21,951 nucleotides of DNA from a virus. The stretch spans positions 1-21,951 of the IMG/VR virus record IMGVR_UViG_3300000116_000154, one strand, 5' to 3'. Under the pieces are notes generated by a model. It searched no databases. It was given only the letters and a program-made list of their open reading frames with translations, and had not been told where the DNA came from. Position numbers and translations under genes: made by a program. Shown here piece after piece: positions 2,678 through 10,806 of this stretch. Positions within the stretch are counted from its first letter, which is position 1. Every line of letters starts with the position of its first letter.

Positions 2678-2939
2678 AGTTCAGGTGTTGAACACCGCCA
2701 AGGAAGTCGTGGCAGAACGAGGGAAGTCATACGGCGCACCCAAAGAGAACTTCGAGCGCATTGCAGCCCTGTGGAATACAGTGTTGGGTGACGAGACATT
2801 GAAAGAACCTCTTAACGCTGCTGACGTTGCCATGATGATGATTTGCCTCAAGCTGGCAAGGCTCACTGCAACCCCAGATCACGAAGACAGCATGGTGGAC
2901 ATCTGCGGCTATGCCGCACTAATGAGCGAGGTGGTGTGA
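2670..2939 (+). CDS. DUF6378-like phage protein (89 aa)
   Basis: The sequence matches a small conserved phage family I know as DUF6378. It has a basic N-terminal helix, the motif ERGKSYGAPKENFERIAALW, then DVAMMMICLKLARL and the C-terminal DSMVDICGYAALMSEV. The strongly conserved parts are YG-x-P, the K-L-A-R helix and the D-x2-D-I-x-G-Y-A-A-L end, all present. The biochemical role is not established. Its place among recombination and nucleotide-type genes suggests DNA metabolism. It overlaps the resolvase gene by eight bases and ends in TGATG shared with the start of the next gene, so these genes are likely co-translated. Confidence 0.8.
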   Translation: MDRVQVLNTAKEVVAERGKSYGAPKENFERIAALWNTVLGDETLKEPLNAADVAMMMICLKLARLTATPDHEDSMVDICGYAALMSEVV

Positions 2940-3838
2940 TGAGAAACCCGTACAAGATAGATGGCCCTGCCCATATATCATTCTCTGGCGGTAGGACGTC
3001 TGCTTATATGCTTCACCAAATTCTCGATGCCTATGACGGTAAGCTGCCAGAGGATATACCTGTGGTGTTTGCCAACACAGGGAAGGAACGACCAGAGACA
3101 CTGGAATTTATCCACAGGTGCGCGACAGAGTGGGGGGTTAATATTCACTGGTTAGAGTGGAAGGCTGGCGTTCCAGGCAAAACATCTGTAGTTGATTACG
3201 AAACAGCGTCAAGAACTGGGGGGCCGTTTGCTGCGTTTATCAAGCACTCCAAGAGCCTGCCGAATAGTATTAGGAGGTCTTGCACTGGTCATATGAAAAT
3301 TAAAATCATTGAGTGGTATCTTAGAAAATTCCTTGGTATGGGCGACTTCGATAGCGTTGTTGGGTTACGCGCTGATGAGATGCACAGGGTGACACGGATT
3401 AGGGCAAGGCAGAACGGCGTAGGCGGCGATATTTACTGCCCTTTGGCAGACGCGAAGAAGACAGCTAGAGATGTTCAAAAGTTTTGGGATAATAATTCAT
3501 TCGACCTTAATTTAATTAATGTCAACGGCAGGTCGCCCCACGGTAATTGCGACCTATGCTTCCTAAAAGGCGTCCGTATCCTAGAGGGTTTAATTCGGGA
3601 AAACCCTGAAAGTGCTGATTGGTGGATTGAGCAAGAAGAAGCTATGTTACCTATTGTGGCAGAAAGCCTAGAAAAGCGTTTCGGGAATATGAAGGGGACG
3701 ACATACTTCGCGCAATTCCGAACAGAGGAAACATACCGCCAACTGCGCGACAGGGTTTTAGCCCAAGGCGACCTTCTCAGTTTGGATAATGTGGGTGAGG
3801 AAGTCGATTGGGGGAAGCCATGCCACTGCACCGACTGA
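2939..3838 (+). CDS. PAPS-reductase-like / PP-loop family protein (299 aa)
   Basis: This belongs to the phage branch of the phosphoadenosine-phosphosulfate reductase (PP-loop ATP pyrophosphatase) superfamily. Residues 14-24 hold the PP-loop SFSGGRTSAYM, with Thr where cellular enzymes usually have Asp. NTGKERPETLEF (47-58) is the characteristic second nucleotide-binding segment, and VGLRADEMHR (141-150) the third. Cys115 (RRSCTGHMK), the pair CDLC (204-207) and CHC at 295-297 could hold an iron-sulfur cluster or zinc. Relatives act by adenylating a substrate for sulfur transfer or by reducing PAPS; DndC, which makes phosphorothioate DNA, shares this fold. Its role in phages is not established. 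I chose the ATG in TGATG at 2937-2941; a longer in-frame start would run through the preceding gene. Confidence 0.85.
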   Translation: MRNPYKIDGPAHISFSGGRTSAYMLHQILDAYDGKLPEDIPVVFANTGKERPETLEFIHRCATEWGVNIHWLEWKAGVPGKTSVVDYETASRTGGPFAAFIKHSKSLPNSIRRSCTGHMKIKIIEWYLRKFLGMGDFDSVVGLRADEMHRVTRIRARQNGVGGDIYCPLADAKKTARDVQKFWDNNSFDLNLINVNGRSPHGNCDLCFLKGVRILEGLIRENPESADWWIEQEEAMLPIVAESLEKRFGNMKGTTYFAQFRTEETYRQLRDRVLAQGDLLSLDNVGEEVDWGKPCHCTD

Positions 3839-3981
3839 TGCGTAGGATAACACAAATCATCTGCGCCGATAGATGCCGCTGTCAAGACGGCGAGAAATGT
3901 GAACACCGATTTGAAGACGAAGCGCAACAAATATTAGATTTAATCAAACAGGAAAAGGCAAAAGATAATGGACGGGTTTGA
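3820..3981 (+). CDS. Tiny Cys-rich protein, possible zinc binder (53 aa)
   Basis: A short open frame overlaps both neighbours: 19 bases into the PAPS-reductase-like gene and 14 bases into the nuclease gene. From the ATG at 3820 (preceded by GGGGGAAG) it reads MPLHRLMRRITQ, then IICADRCRCQDGEKCEHRF, then an acidic helix DEAQQILDLIKQEKAK. The spacing C-x3-C-x-C-x5-C-x-H within about 14 residues looks like a small metal-binding knuckle. A second start at 3838, sharing TGATG with the upstream stop, would give 47 residues and keep all cysteines. I do not recognise a family. Overlapping ends and a sensible amino-acid pattern support a real, translationally coupled gene. Confidence 0.55.
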   Translation: MPLHRLMRRITQIICADRCRCQDGEKCEHRFEDEAQQILDLIKQEKAKDNGRV

Positions 3982-4720
3982 AAAACACGGCTTGAAGCAC
4001 TCCAGCATCAGCCAGATCAATAAATGGATAGAAGCCCCAGACTGCTGGGTTAGCCACTATTTATTTAACAATCGAGGCGCTAGCTCCAGCGCAATGTGGC
4101 GCGGCATCTTCGTAGAGGAAGCCGTGGCTGACATTCTTACAGAGCGCATGACCTACGACGAGGCTGTGGTAAAAGCCGTCAGTAACTTCGACAACAAGGT
4201 CATGTTTGATGATGACGGATCGGCCGACAAGGAACGCACAAACATTTCGCCAATGGTCACCCTGGCTGCTGATGAGTTGAAGCAGTACGGCAAGCCAGAT
4301 TTCCCAGGCAACGCCCAGCACCGGGTATCCATGACTGCCAAAGGTGACGGCTGGTCGTTAGAATTTATAGGCTTTATTGATTTTAAGTTTCCAGATCACA
4401 ATCTTGTTGTTGATCTCAAGACAACTATGCGGATGCCTAGCGTAATGAGCAAGGGCCACCAGCGGCAACGGGCCTTCTATCAAAAGTCCAGCGGCAACGC
4501 GACCGTTAAGTTTTTGTATGTGACTCCAAAGAAGGTAGACATGAAAGAGGACGGCAACCCAGACGAACTGATGGCAGAAATTAAAGTACATTTATCAAGA
4601 CAGGAAAAGTTCTTGCGCCTGGGCGACAAGGAATTATTACGAGACATCGTGCCTGTTAACCCGGACAGTTTCTATTGGCGCGGTGATGAAGACACTAGAA
4701 AAAAACTATTTGGAATTTGA
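3968..4720 (+). CDS. PD-(D/E)XK nuclease, RecB/Cas4-type exonuclease (250 aa)
   Basis: This is a metal-dependent DNA nuclease of the PD-(D/E)XK superfamily, probably an exonuclease used in recombination or host DNA breakdown. Seen in order: the N-terminal KHSSISQINKWIEAPDCWVSHY, like the helical entry of RecB-family nucleases; an acidic helix RGIFVEEAVADIL with Glu50/Glu51; the core GFIDFKFPDHNLVVDLKTT with Asp138, Asp149 and Lys151; and QRQRAFYQK with Gln167 and Tyr171, the Q-x3-Y motif of the family. The length is normal for phage members. It starts inside the end of the tiny Cys-rich gene after an AGGAAAAGG stretch. The ssDNA-binding-like gene follows, a typical exonuclease-SSB pairing of phage recombination modules. 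Confidence 0.85.
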   Translation: MDGFEKHGLKHSSISQINKWIEAPDCWVSHYLFNNRGASSSAMWRGIFVEEAVADILTERMTYDEAVVKAVSNFDNKVMFDDDGSADKERTNISPMVTLAADELKQYGKPDFPGNAQHRVSMTAKGDGWSLEFIGFIDFKFPDHNLVVDLKTTMRMPSVMSKGHQRQRAFYQKSSGNATVKFLYVTPKKVDMKEDGNPDELMAEIKVHLSRQEKFLRLGDKELLRDIVPVNPDSFYWRGDEDTRKKLFGI

Positions 4721-4802: not shown

Positions 4803-5411
4803 ATGTCATATGAATTTGACGAAGGACAACAGGGCAGCGGAGACAGCGGCCCCTTTATTAACTTTCACGCAAAAGAAACCTTGGACGGTGCAATCGGTTC
4901 AAGGTCTTTTAGTATCCGTGACGCAGATGGCAACCGCACAGACATCACCAAGAAGATGGAGAAGGGGGTTGCCTTTGATCTCGACACATTGAAGACGGGT
5001 TGGTCGTTTAGCAATGGAGCAATCGGTCAAGCTCCTCAGTGGGAGTGGAATGACACCCCCGCACGTTTCAATGTAAAGCAGCCTGACGATATTGGTGGAG
5101 AACGCTGGAAGAAAGGCTTCTCTATTCGTATTGCTCTTGGAAAATCAGAGGCAGTGACATGGAGTCAATCCGGCGCTGGATGCTGGCAAGGCTTAGTTAA
5201 TTTAATGAAGGCAGTTCGTGAAGACGGCGGCGAAGGTGAGACTGTTATTGCTATGCTCACTGGCTGTGAAGACATCAAATTTAAAAAAGGTGGAACGTCT
5301 GCCCCTAAGTTTGAAATAAAAAAATGGGCTAAACGTCCAGACTGCTTACTGCAAGAAGCTGCAGCGGCAGACGAGCCAGAAGAAGACGACGAAGACGAAG
5401 ACGAGTTCTAA
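4803..5411 (+). CDS. Putative ssDNA-binding protein with acidic C-terminal tail (202 aa)
   Basis: The body (residues 1 to about 180) is rich in aromatic and small residues (FINFHAKETLDGAIGSRSFS, GWSFSNGAIGQAPQWEW, KKGFSIRIALGKSEAVTWSQ) and looks beta-rich like an OB-fold protein. The last 17 residues, after AAAAD, are almost all Asp and Glu and end in Phe (EDDEDEDEF). Acidic tails ending in an aromatic residue are a hallmark of functional SSBs such as E. coli SSB and T7 gp2.5, where they recruit partner enzymes. The place between nuclease and primase-helicase fits. I cannot name the family and infer the role from tail and context. Start ATG has AAGGAAG seven bases upstream. Confidence 0.65.
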   Translation: MSYEFDEGQQGSGDSGPFINFHAKETLDGAIGSRSFSIRDADGNRTDITKKMEKGVAFDLDTLKTGWSFSNGAIGQAPQWEWNDTPARFNVKQPDDIGGERWKKGFSIRIALGKSEAVTWSQSGAGCWQGLVNLMKAVREDGGEGETVIAMLTGCEDIKFKKGGTSAPKFEIKKWAKRPDCLLQEAAAADEPEEDDEDEDEF

Positions 5412-5517: not shown

Positions 5518-7575
5518 ATGGCACGTTACGAAAAGTTTGGAAAACCACTAACAGAATTAGGTTACGACATAACGCCTTTGAAGGGTAAACGACCATTCCT
5601 TACGGGCTGGCAAACAAGGCCAGAAATCGCAACAGATTTTAAAAAATACGGCGACTCCAATATTGGTTTGTTGTGCGGCGGCAAAAATAATATTGTTGCT
5701 GTGGATGTTGATGTGAAGCATGAAGGCGCAGCCGCAATCCTACGCACACTTTGCGAAGATCAGATGGGAAGCGCACCTGAACGTATCGGTGCAGCGCCCA
5801 AGACATTATTTGTATACAGATGCTCAGAGCCGTTCTTCAAAGTAAAGACAGCAGTCTTCGACATTGACGGCGAAGATGCTTGTGTGGAAATCCTAGCGGA
5901 AGGCCAGCAGTTCGTTGCGTCAGGAAAACACCCAGACACTAAGAAGAACTATTCATGGCCTCGTGACACAATCCTAGACTGCCCACCAGACCAGCTAACA
6001 ACAGTCACTCCAAGCGATATAGCGCAATTTGTACAAACTTGTAACACAGCCTTGCAAGACTTCGGCACAATCAAAGCCAAGTCGCTGAACGGCAAGAAGA
6101 AGCCAAGCAATTACAAATACGACTTTGCTGAAAACGAACAGACAACAACAGCCGATAAGCTGCTTGCCGCAATGGCTTATGTTCCTAACGACGATATGCA
6201 TTATGACGATTGGGCATATATGGCACACGCCATCAAAGGCGCAATCGGCGCAGATGGTCAAGACTTGTTTCACAGATGGTCAAAGCGATCATCCAAGTAC
6301 GATCCACAAGAAACTGATCGCATGTGGAACAGCATTGGTGACGTAAAAACAATCGGCGCTGGGACGATATACCACCAAGCGTCACAATACGGATTCGACG
6401 TTGCAGACTTTGGTAAAGAACAATACCCTGGTCCAGACGACATAGACGAGTTTGACGGCATAGATGAACTTACAGACGCCTCAGACGATGGCACAGACGG
6501 TGTTGGCGAGGATGGTTGCTTTACAGCGGCAAGCGTCTCAGGGCCGTTACCAGAGCGTGAATGGCTATTGGACCAGTGGTTTCCGTACAAAACGACCGGG
6601 ATGCTTTTTGGTGCTGGGGGCATAGGCAAAACACTTCTTATGCACCAACTAGGCAACAAGGTCGCCTTGGGTGAGCCGTTTATGGGTTTAGCAACTAAGA
6701 AGATGCCAGTGCTATTAGCCCTATGTGAAGACGATGAACTAGAATTAAAACGCCGCCAGCTAGACATCAACACATGGTTAGGCGTTGATGACTTTGGCAC
6801 AGGGCCAGACAACTGCCACCTATGGCCCAGGATCGGCGGTGATAACATCCTTGTTACATTTCCGAACCAAGGCGAGGACAAGGCTGGAGCTTTTTATGAG
6901 CAGCTATGTCGTAAAATCCTAGCACTAAAAAAGCTGCACGACAGTGACGACATTCTAGTAATATTGGACACGGCAGCGGATTATTTCGGCGGCGGTGAGA
7001 ACGTCAGGCGTGAAGTAAACACATTCGTTAAGAAGTACCTTGGCTCCCTGTCTGTAGAGTATAACGCAACCGTTATCCTACTAGCCCACCCGTCCCTAGC
7101 AGGGCTTGCAAGCGGCACAGGTAGTTCTGGATCAACTGCTTGGGAGAACAGCGTCAGAAGCCGCGCATACCTTGCCAGGGTTGAAGATAGTGACGAGCTT
7201 CGCATCTTATCCAGAAAGAAATCGAACTACTCTTCTATTGGAACTGATAGTGATATTCAGCTTATTTGGGACAGTGGCGTTATGGTCATACCATCAACGC
7301 CAGACCAGTTTGACAGGCTCAATGCAGTCAAATTAAAAGAAGCAATCCTTTCTGAAATTGAGGACGCATGGTGCAAAGGAACACCGTATAAATCAAATAG
7401 GTCGGAAGGAAGAAAAGTTAAAACAGCGTTGCCAAAGGCGTTTCCTAACGAAAAAAAAGGACCGCTTTTGGTGGCCTTTAATGACCTTGTGGAAGGTGGC
7501 AATATTATCCACATAGAGCGCAAAGGCTACAAAGTTGAAATTGGGCTAAGTAAGGCACAAACCGTTGAAATGTAA
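5518..7575 (+). CDS. Primase-polymerase / helicase fusion (685 aa)
   Basis: A large replication initiator joining three parts. Residues 1 to about 170 are a bifunctional primase/polymerase (archaeo-eukaryotic primase type): the metal motif VAVDVDV with Asp63 and Asp65, and SGKHPD with His138. Residues about 213-272 (AAMAYVPNDDMHYDDWAYMA to DRMWNSIG) fit a PriCT-2 linker domain. From about 345 on there is a RepA-like hexameric ATPase: Walker A GAGGIGKT at 365-372 and Walker B ILVILDTAADYFGG with Asp484. It would lay primers and unwind DNA, probably relying on a host polymerase, since none is encoded in this window. The start ATG follows AAGAGGTAC. The repeat-rich gap downstream is a likely origin. 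Confidence 0.9.
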   Translation: MARYEKFGKPLTELGYDITPLKGKRPFLTGWQTRPEIATDFKKYGDSNIGLLCGGKNNIVAVDVDVKHEGAAAILRTLCEDQMGSAPERIGAAPKTLFVYRCSEPFFKVKTAVFDIDGEDACVEILAEGQQFVASGKHPDTKKNYSWPRDTILDCPPDQLTTVTPSDIAQFVQTCNTALQDFGTIKAKSLNGKKKPSNYKYDFAENEQTTTADKLLAAMAYVPNDDMHYDDWAYMAHAIKGAIGADGQDLFHRWSKRSSKYDPQETDRMWNSIGDVKTIGAGTIYHQASQYGFDVADFGKEQYPGPDDIDEFDGIDELTDASDDGTDGVGEDGCFTAASVSGPLPEREWLLDQWFPYKTTGMLFGAGGIGKTLLMHQLGNKVALGEPFMGLATKKMPVLLALCEDDELELKRRQLDINTWLGVDDFGTGPDNCHLWPRIGGDNILVTFPNQGEDKAGAFYEQLCRKILALKKLHDSDDILVILDTAADYFGGGENVRREVNTFVKKYLGSLSVEYNATVILLAHPSLAGLASGTGSSGSTAWENSVRSRAYLARVEDSDELRILSRKKSNYSSIGTDSDIQLIWDSGVMVIPSTPDQFDRLNAVKLKEAILSEIEDAWCKGTPYKSNRSEGRKVKTALPKAFPNEKKGPLLVAFNDLVEGGNIIHIERKGYKVEIGLSKAQTVEM

Positions 7576-7693: not shown

Positions 7694-7739
7694 ACATATT
7701 TCTATCTTATATCGCAACCCAAAATGAATGGTCTTTAAA

Positions 7740-8315
7740 ATGGCAACCAAAACAATCAGACGGCAACCTGATGAAATTACAAATCCGAAAGATTACGGCG
7801 ACCCAATTGCTGACGGAATCCATCACGCAATTAAACCCGTTGACGAAATTGCAACAAAGATGGAATTGAAATGGGGATGCGATAGACTGCCTGGACTTGT
7901 GTCGCCAGCAACAGCAGCAAAGTTTGGATCGGCAAAAGCAAAGTTAGACGATGCCATTTACAACAACGACCCCCAAGCAGTTGCCAAACGTGCCACAGTT
8001 ATGGTTAATGGATGGAAAGCACTAGACAAGGAAGCTAGTAACAACCATAAACCGTTCAAGCCGCGCATCTGGCATCACACAACAGAAAACGGTTTTAAAT
8101 TTGCAATCGCAAAAGGAAACGCAGATGCAATAAAAGCCATCAAAACCGATTCAAGGATGGAAGGCGTAGCAGTCTACAGCTTAGATGAAATTGGACATTT
8201 GTTAGAAAACGACACAATGGCCCTAGTCAATTCAGTAAAGGACGTTTTTCCAGATGCACAAATTACAGAAGTTAGAAAGGCTGAGAACAGCGTTGACGAT
8301 GAACTGCCGTTTTAA
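7740..8315 (+). CDS. Hypothetical protein with SSB-like DDELPF C-terminus (191 aa)
   Basis: I do not recognise the body. It begins MATKTIRRQPDEITNPKDYG and has helical central parts (AAKFGSAKAKLDDAIYNNDP; VAKRATVMVNGWKALDKEA). A beta-rich part follows around RIWHHTTENGFKFAIAKGNA and VAVYSLDEIGHLL. The last six residues, DDELPF, nearly equal the tip of bacterial SSB (DDDIPF, DDDLPF), the peptide that docks SSB-partner enzymes. So this protein may recruit host replication or repair enzymes to the phage fork, or may be an SSB of unrecognised fold. I chose the ATG at 7740; an ATG at 7728 adds four residues. Neither has a good Shine-Dalgarno. It follows the candidate origin. Confidence 0.7.
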   Translation: MATKTIRRQPDEITNPKDYGDPIADGIHHAIKPVDEIATKMELKWGCDRLPGLVSPATAAKFGSAKAKLDDAIYNNDPQAVAKRATVMVNGWKALDKEASNNHKPFKPRIWHHTTENGFKFAIAKGNADAIKAIKTDSRMEGVAVYSLDEIGHLLENDTMALVNSVKDVFPDAQITEVRKAENSVDDELPF

Positions 8316-9037: not shown

Positions 9038-9434
9038 AAAATTAAATCCAAAACAAACTGCTTTTGTTAAAGAATATCTTATTGATCGAAATGGGAAACA
9101 AGCGATGATTAGAGCAGGATATTCTCCTGGGCAATCCGCAGAAGTTTCAGCTTCAAGAATGATAAGAATACCTAAGATTAAAAAGGCCATCGAGCTAGGC
9201 GAACAAAAGCACCAAGAAAGATGCAACGTCACTAAAGAAACTATAACAAAGATGATGAACGAAGACAGAGATTTGGCAATTGAATTATCACAGTCAGGGC
9301 CAGCCGTTACAACGACTATGAACCTTGCAAAACTTCACGGCCTGATCACAGACAAGGCCCAGGTTGAAGCAAACGTAGGCGTCAATTTCAACACTTATAT
9401 GCAGCCCAAACCAAAAATAGATAATGGAAATTAA
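9027..9434 (+). CDS. terS: Terminase small subunit (135 aa)
   Basis: The N-terminal pattern NEKLNPKQTAFVKEYLIDRN, then GKQAMIRAGYSP and SAEVSASRMIRIPKIKKAIE, is the classic DNA-binding helix-turn-helix end of the Terminase_2 small-subunit family. This ring protein recognises the packaging site and hands DNA to the large subunit. The C-terminal part (ETITKMMNEDRDLAIELSQS and on) is the predicted oligomerising helix. The start is uncertain: I favour TTG at 9027, which has AGGATTGG upstream and puts the known N-terminus first; ATG at 9006 or 8964 would overlap the previous gene more. It overlaps the large subunit gene by 11 bases, as usual for this pair. Confidence 0.85.
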   Translation: MTNEKLNPKQTAFVKEYLIDRNGKQAMIRAGYSPGQSAEVSASRMIRIPKIKKAIELGEQKHQERCNVTKETITKMMNEDRDLAIELSQSGPAVTTTMNLAKLHGLITDKAQVEANVGVNFNTYMQPKPKIDNGN

Positions 9435-10806
9435 TATTGATTTTGAGGTGCGATGGTATCAGCAGCCATTTTATCTGGCCCTAGTTAATCAGAAGAAAAA
9501 GCGATTGATTGAAATTGCTCACAGACGGTGGGGCAAGGATGAAATAGTTTTGAACGGGTTTAGAGACCTGTCTCGTAAACGTGTTGGCACTTATTGGCAC
9601 TGCTTTCCAGAATATGCACAGGCTCGTAAAGCCATTTGGAACGGTGTCAATGGTCACACTGGCAAGCGCAGAATTGATGAAGCGTTCCCACCAGAAATCC
9701 GCAAACGTGTAAACGACAACGATATGTTTATAGAGACCACCTGGGGATCGACTTGGCAACTGTTAGGCTCTGACCGTTATGACGCCACCGTTGGCTCTGG
9801 CCCAGTTGGCATAGCGTACAGTGAGTGGGCTTTATGCAACCCAGCAGCTTGGGCTTATCACAAGCCAATGATTGAGGAATCAGACGGAACAGCAGCTTTT
9901 ATTACAACTCCTCGTGGATCAAACCATGCAAGGAGAATGTTTGATCGTGCGGTTGTCTCAGATTATTGGTTTGCTGAACTATCCAGCATTCAAGATACCG
10001 GCGCACTGTCACAGGAGCAAATTGACGAGAGCTTGGCAGAATACATTGATTTGTATGATGATGAGCTAGGCAAGAGTTTATTTGAACAAGAGTATTATTG
10101 TTCTTTTGAAGCGGCAATTATTGGTTCTTTTTACGGCTCTCATTTAGCTAGGGCTAGAAAAGAAGGCCGTATAAAAAATATTGAATGGGATGAAAGTTTG
10201 CCTGTCATAACCGTTTGGGACATTGGTTATTCTGACGATACGGTTATTATTTTTGTGCAAGTTTTGGCGGGTGAAGTTCGTATTATTGACACTTACGATG
10301 CCAACGGACGCGACCTCGAACACTACGCTGATGTCATTAAGGGCAAGCCGTGGGCCTCAAACTACGGCAAGCACTGGCTACCGCATGACGCCCAAGCCAA
10401 GACGCTTGCAGCGGCTGGGCGGTCTGTATACGAGCAGTTTACGAAGGATCACGGCCTAGAGAATGTGTCAATACTTCAGAACACTAACACCGAACAACAG
10501 GGCATCATGGCTGCAAGGCAATTGTTTCCTAGGCTTTGGATTGATGCCAGACAGGAAAAGTTTATTGACGCACTGACAAACTTCCGGCGTGAATGGGATG
10601 ACAGCAAAAAATGCTTTAGAGAAAAGCCCGTCCACGACTGGACAAACCATTACGCTGATGCGTTAAGATATTTATCTTGGGTGTGGAAAGAACCTGTTGT
10701 TAAAAAACCTAGCACCCCAAACCGCACTTTAAGCGTTGGCAAAAAATCAACTGTTACAATGGATGACTTGTTAAAATCGGTGAAAAGAAAAAAGAAGTAT
10801 GATTGA
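9424..10806 (+). CDS. terL: Terminase large subunit, packaging ATPase-nuclease (460 aa)
   Basis: This motor protein pumps DNA into the empty capsid and cuts the concatemer. The N-terminal ATPase shows an adenine-binding stretch DFEVRWYQQPF and a Walker A-type IAHRRWGKDE (31-40). The residue after Lys38 is Asp, not Ser or Thr. Walker B is VGIAYSEWA with Glu134, and the coupling motif is FITTPRGS. The C-terminal RNase H-like nuclease begins near ITVWDIGYSDD (Asp266), continues with HWLPHDAQ, and ends with a HYADALRYL acidic element. Length and motif order are normal for the family. The ATG overlaps the small subunit gene. It is followed by a likely late promoter. Confidence 0.93.
   Translation: MEINIDFEVRWYQQPFYLALVNQKKKRLIEIAHRRWGKDEIVLNGFRDLSRKRVGTYWHCFPEYAQARKAIWNGVNGHTGKRRIDEAFPPEIRKRVNDNDMFIETTWGSTWQLLGSDRYDATVGSGPVGIAYSEWALCNPAAWAYHKPMIEESDGTAAFITTPRGSNHARRMFDRAVVSDYWFAELSSIQDTGALSQEQIDESLAEYIDLYDDELGKSLFEQEYYCSFEAAIIGSFYGSHLARARKEGRIKNIEWDESLPVITVWDIGYSDDTVIIFVQVLAGEVRIIDTYDANGRDLEHYADVIKGKPWASNYGKHWLPHDAQAKTLAAAGRSVYEQFTKDHGLENVSILQNTNTEQQGIMAARQLFPRLWIDARQEKFIDALTNFRREWDDSKKCFREKPVHDWTNHYADALRYLSWVWKEPVVKKPSTPNRTLSVGKKSTVTMDDLLKSVKRKKKYD

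Follow-up and report, generated by a model that had tools for sequence, protein, structure and literature searches.

The 21,951-base window analysed here belongs to a virus record of 28,051 bases; genes for a terminase and a portal-like protein lie downstream. The features under study, with P1 denoting the tip-bearing protein and P2 the probable phage single-stranded DNA-binding protein (SSB), are the following:

3968..4720, + strand: gene before P2 (PHROG 10230, unknown function)
4803..5411, + strand: P2, probable phage SSB, 202 aa, with an OB-like model, ending ...EDDEDEDEF; in Roseobacter phages a gp2.5-like SSB stands in its position
5361..5408, + strand: acidic tail of P2, residues 187-202 (low model confidence)
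5518..7575, + strand: primase-helicase (Prim-Pol, PriCT-2, AAA_25)
7740..8315, + strand: P1, tip-bearing protein, 191 aa, ending ...ENSVDDELPF
7803..8045, + strand: three-helix bundle of P1, residues 22-102 (model, block-mean pLDDT >90)
8067..8246, + strand: small alpha/beta part of P1, residues 110-169 (model)
8259..8312, + strand: tail of P1, residues 174-191, without secondary structure (model, confidence dropping towards the tip)
8295..8312, + strand: codons of the SSB-type tip DDELPF (translation and conservation)

Before the replication genes, at 2052-2243, a short gene encodes a Cro/YdaS-like DNA-binding protein (YdaS_toxin, 30.8 bits against a cut-off of 30), hinting at a temperate phage. 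A DUF6378 gene (2670-2939, E 2.5e-30) lies between a Holliday-junction-resolvase-like gene (PHROG 1770) and a phosphoadenosine phosphosulfate (PAPS) reductase-like gene (2933-3838, PHROG 424, E 9.8e-47), and genes annotated as PAPS reductase adjoin P1 in the Roseobacter phages CRP-821 and CRP-831. The terminase large subunit (9424-10806) is nearest to those of Rhizobium, Bradyrhizobium and Acetobacter phages (44-51% identity), a likeness pointing to an alphaproteobacterial host.

Translation of 7740-8315, which closes with the stop codon TAA at 8313-8315, bears out the claim of the preliminary description that the C-terminal hexapeptide of P1, DDELPF, nearly equals the bacterial SSB tip; an alternative in-frame ATG at 7728 would lengthen P1 to 195 aa. 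The hexapeptide is an acidic C-terminal tip ending in PF, and, as in the C-terminus of bacterial SSB (DDDIPF in E. coli), the sequence D-[DE]-x-[IL]-P-F follows a variable, probably flexible tail. P1 differs from bacterial SSB in that the tip is on a separate protein, which neither shows an OB fold when modelled nor matches the Pfam SSB family. A beta-clamp-binding motif was considered instead of an SSB tip and set aside, as D-[DE]-x-[IL]-P-F at a free C-terminus suits the SSB C-terminus better.

The AlphaFold2 model of P1 (38-row alignment, mean pLDDT 85.1, pTM 0.66) places helices at residues 22-45, 56-74, and 78-102, and the best-conserved motif of the family alignment, W-G-x-x-R-L-x-x-L-V, sits in the resulting three-helix bundle. 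The alpha/beta part includes three short strands in the model, and along the tail the mean pLDDT declines from 81 (residues 171-180) to 54 (181-190) and 44 (191). Relatives from annotated records were left out of this model (38 sequences) and of the P2 model (40 sequences). The check proposed earlier, structure prediction for an OB fold, found none, and the earlier impression of a body lacking an SSB signature is likewise upheld: since the model shows no OB barrel and neither P1 nor 42 relatives match the Pfam SSB family (PF00436), P1 was rejected as an SSB itself. Membership in a known Pfam family was also rejected, since the 43 family members gave single stray matches only (the sole row for the P1 of the window being RickCE_cat, E 0.033, under its cut-off), and a PHROG search with the same 43 members returned no match. 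The P1 model had no match at E <= 0.001 in a PDB fold search. A second-look comparison retrieved common three-helix bundles (Z 8.4 or lower) and hardly probed the remainder of the model, and the 13 matches at E <= 0.001 in BFVD are uncharacterised or nameless except for one terminase small subunit. A full-text literature search, judged by titles and abstract starts and with most subscription journals outside its coverage, found no paper on such a protein, and the family is so far annotated only as 'hypothetical protein'.

Conservation of the tip was assessed in 190 sources, a set completed by scanning viral contigs with the P1 and P2 alignments; iterated profile searches of all ORFs in these sources recovered 158 P1, 155 P2, and 166 primase-helicase ORFs. 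When P1 or its Manatee relative alone served as query, scans of viral contigs found no relative. A scan of genome contigs found one truncated relative. The tip, defined as a C-terminal match to [DE].{0,2}[ILVM]P[FWY], is carried by 80 of 123 distinct P1 proteins with intact 3' ends. Of the remaining distinct genes in these loci, counted from a length of 80 aa upwards, 4 of 1,418 have it, and all four of these encode the gp2.5-like ssDNA-binding protein of Roseobacter-type phages; among P2 proteins the proportion is 21/114. A smaller first round gave 33/54 for P1, 12/73 for P2, and 4/638 for other genes. These counts leave out truncated P1 and P2 genes, identical sequences, and three loci that repeat others (L003, L016, L018); control genes are the longest non-overlapping ORFs (the gp2.5-like SSB of L006, ending LDDDIPW, is not among them), and the proteins of L155/L156 are counted as tipped P1 despite their fusion to primase sequence.

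In this very divergent family the tip is kept in 42 of 64 P1 clusters at 70% identity and in 26 of 44 at 50%. The preliminary description had named conservation among homologues as the check on chance, with unrelated C-termini as the sign of it, and the homologues instead retain the tip, which is almost certainly real and under selection. In the 42 tipped representatives (70% identity), D occurs at -5 in 40, and the last residue is F in 40 and W in 2, with P at -2 and [ILVM] at -3 set by the search pattern itself. Positions -20 to -11 are variable (at most ~1 bit each), the same arrangement as in bacterial SSBs, where a variable tail precedes an invariant tip. The Trp ends include DEVPW on one P1 and DDDIPW on one Roseobacter-type SSB. 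In 22 clusters there is no terminal tip. Frame errors are no general cause of its absence, because the other reading frames around the end of such P1 genes held a plausible displaced tip only in L154. The P1 tip likely acts as a mimic of the SSB tip directed towards some pocket.

The gene neighbourhood is also conserved. In the window P1 lies directly downstream of the primase-helicase; where both genes are present, they share a strand in 115 of 116 loci and P1 is downstream in 111 of 116 (median gap 225 bp), with 11 further P1 loci having no primase within the fetched stretch. Relatives of P1 found by tblastn come from five Roseobacter phages, a Manatee Spring phage, and a Caenibius plasmid, all with the gene order P2 or other SSB, primase-helicase, P1 (several small genes intervene in the Manatee phage). 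The gene after the primase-helicase in the Manatee Spring phage, in Roseobacter phages CRP-811/821/823/831, and in the 38-kb Caenibius plasmid is a P1 homologue, annotated as hypothetical only, and the Roseobacter and Caenibius members lack the terminal tip. At the place matching the 3968..4720 gene, the Roseobacter phages have a PD-(D/E)XK nuclease that matches other families. The Caenibius plasmid (L008, NZ_CP081845.1), labelled 'non-mobilizable', looks like a phage-plasmid, as both this replication module and a terminase gene are aboard.

Two near-identical contigs encode the same 582-aa protein (L155:4870-6618 = L156:216-1964), which joins P1 in frame with roughly the first half of the primase-helicase; the helicase part is absent and the tip DEIPF is retained. 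Because both contigs give the same protein, they perhaps represent one event or an artefact, and the fusion may be a deletion or an assembly artefact. The primase-helicase of the Manatee phage (L001:3972-6272) ends GETFDDIPFD, with a tip-like motif one residue from its end; among 124 distinct complete ORFs of the primase-helicase, one more has such an end, that of the L155 fusion, making 2 in all.

The protein on the other side of the primase-helicase, P2, is probably the phage's own SSB and a putative ssDNA binder, a reading that joins a weak OB-like model to the finding that in Roseobacter phages the corresponding position is occupied by a gp2.5-like SSB. The P2 model (40 rows, pLDDT 80.4, pTM 0.75) consists mainly of strands with one long helix (125-141). 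A Foldseek search with it gave no match at E <= 0.001; in the second-look comparison a phiC31 integrase-RDF fusion came first, with 150 aligned, Z 6.3 and rmsd 5.3, and the rows below it were for the most part OB-fold, HIN, and related domains, such as RPA, SSBs, and HIN-200, with Z of only 2.6-3.7. From the phiC31 match, the phiC31 directionality factor and the SSB-like family could share a fold. Sequence searches returned no match of P2 to the T7 gp2.5-type families (PHROG 112, Pfam PF10991/PF21265), none to PHROG 112 among 42 P2 members, and no relative by tblastn against phages; the only PHROG match was phrog_9528 'nucleotidyltransferase', in 10 of the 42 members. P2 shares with T7 gp2.5-type SSBs an acidic tail ending in Phe, and the gp2.5-like protein of Roseobacter phages occupies its place in the gene order, whereas P1 differs from these SSBs in having no family match and no OB barrel in its model. 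The tails of P2 relatives (among them DEF, DEI, EPLF, ETDF, and DFG) end in F, FG, I, or PF, so that the last residue is not always aromatic.

The preliminary description had seen the primase-helicase as flanked by two proteins with acidic tails ending in Phe. The arrangement stands; the two tails, however, are not equivalent, P2 being most likely the phage SSB, with a tail that lacks PF when P1 is tipped. Of 97 distinct pairs of P1 and SSB, 60 have the tip on P1 alone, 19 on the SSB alone, 18 on neither, and 0 on both. The cases with the tip on the SSB alone comprise two lineages. In one, of Roseobacter type, P2 is replaced by a gp2.5-like SSB (PHROG 112, E 2.6e-17; Pfam PF10991 over its cut-off) that ends DDALPF or DDDIPW, and P1 ends xGLFxxx (DGLFDNK or alike). 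In the other, the P2 terminus is EDIPF or similar, with P1 ending CDEIL, EDEILY, GPITPFLG, or the like. Where the SSB ends IPF and P1 ends CDEIL/EDEILY (L055, L057, L068, L074, L088, L090, L091, L094), these P1 ends resemble the DDEI tails of P2 in L025 and L038, as if the tails had been exchanged.

Mutual exclusion of the tip on P1 and the SSB is suggested by these sequences and not proven, because the SSB gained its tip only about twice. The 97 pairs were thinned to 65 rows, and a tree of their tail-less P1 bodies shows at least 11 changes of the P1 tip and 2 of the SSB tip, which leaves an independent-pairs test powerless, as its sign test cannot reach significance; a Fisher test on the 65 thinned rows gives p of about 1e-4 with kinship ignored and is not leaned on. 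Two further tipped P2 proteins lie beside no detectable P1: L064 shows none in its whole 41.9-kb record, and L069 none in the only 1.9 kb present past the primase; L036, however, is without both P1 and tip. Among the pairs with a tip on neither protein, four (L008, L051, L080, L164) have LPF, VPF, or IPF with 3 to 5 further residues behind it, and another four (L014, L015, L161, L174) keep an altered motif. An SSB tip needs the free carboxylate of its last Phe, so such internal motifs should not act as one. The 22 tipless P1 clusters and the 18 pairs with neither protein tipped indicate that the tip is not always needed.

Profiles of DNA_pol_A, DNA_pol_B, DNA_pol3_alpha, and the SSB family found no match in 40 of 40 whole records, a result to be read in the knowledge that a divergent polymerase could escape profiles and that many records may be fragments. 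The 40 records (that of the window, five named, and 34 other virus records) were hand-picked from the 190 sources and are mostly ~30 kb or longer; the same profiles matched control genomes in 10/14 (DNA_pol_A), 5/14 (DNA_pol_B), 10/14 (DNA_pol3_alpha), and 10/14 (SSB) cases. In one report, two subgroups of Roseobacter phages are described as without a DNA polymerase gene, suggesting reliance on host machinery (PMC12629253), and in another, for cyanopodoviruses without a polymerase gene, the SSB and helicase/primase are proposed to perhaps interact with host Pol III (PMC9860041). According to a third source, chi/psi of E. coli join the replisome to SSB via the SSB C-terminal tail (PMC13213242).

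The candidate role that appears narrowly probable for P1 is that of a replication-module adaptor whose tip recruits the partners of host SSB through their own pockets. The folded body would dock on a component of the phage's replication machinery, with the primase-helicase and P2 as the likeliest candidates, and the flexible tail would offer a free SSB-type tip, D-[DE]-[IL]-P-F-COOH. This tip could fill the pockets that receive the SSB C-terminus on chi of the Pol III clamp loader, DnaG, PriA, or RecO, and binding would bring the host enzymes to the phage fork; in two lineages the SSB bears the tip instead, with P1 lacking a terminal tip. Such recruitment through P1 is proposed to be needed because the phage has no recognisable polymerase of its own and the tail of its SSB is tipless. 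A broader and more tentative idea, which is possible but has less than an even chance of being right, is that a wide group of phages lacking a recognisable polymerase has a split SSB: P2 would coat ssDNA and P1 would bear the hub tip that gathers host enzymes, with no more than one tip per module and with the tip having moved between the two proteins at least twice.

The acidic tails of T7 gp2.5 and T4 gp32 order the phage replisome via phage proteins, and the P1 tip might similarly be read by a pocket of the phage primase-helicase or phage nuclease. The conserved neighbourhood, the fusion of P1 to part of the primase-helicase in L155/L156, and the P2 tails, likewise acidic and ending in F or I, are consistent with such an internal role, but the close match to the bacterial SSB consensus across diverse phages would suit bacterial pockets better than a phage pocket that evolves fast, and this explanation is considered unlikely. 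T4 gp59, a helicase loader, provides the model for another reading, in which the body of P1 is the active part, as a loader or mediator, and the tip just helps it to stay near SSB partners. A helical body, a gene that comes after the helicase, and retention of the body where the tip is lost all agree with a loader; the PDB fold searches without a match to a known loader argue weakly against it, and of the functional alternatives it is given the least credence.

The other function envisaged in the preliminary description, competition for host SSB partners, would make P1 a decoy whose free tips flood the SSB-binding pockets and block repair or nuclease activities of the host (Exo I, RecQ, RecO, RecJ) to which the phage would be vulnerable. 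A free tip on a body that is not an SSB would be expected to compete for the same pockets, to judge from the literature on the SSB C-terminus (PMC5872125, PMC10164576). However, a decoy has no need of an adjoining primase-helicase, next to which P1 is so regularly found, and tipless P1 stays in the module in the two lineages with a tipped SSB; recruitment is therefore preferred to a decoy, which is improbable, though slightly less so than a loader. A chance or compositional C-terminus without function could account for the tipless clusters, but it is contradicted by the excess of tips in P1 over control genes, all of whose tips are on SSBs, and it is hardly credible.

Recruitment of host enzymes by P1 would bear on how phages without a polymerase replicate. 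In bacteria, replication and repair enzymes dock mainly at the SSB tip, and, if the adaptor role is true, such phages would take over the host replisome by detaching this tip from the DNA-binding protein, a naturally occurring test of the reasons for its usual linkage to ssDNA. For a family known only as hypothetical proteins, the P1 tip is a short sequence feature that is experimentally accessible.
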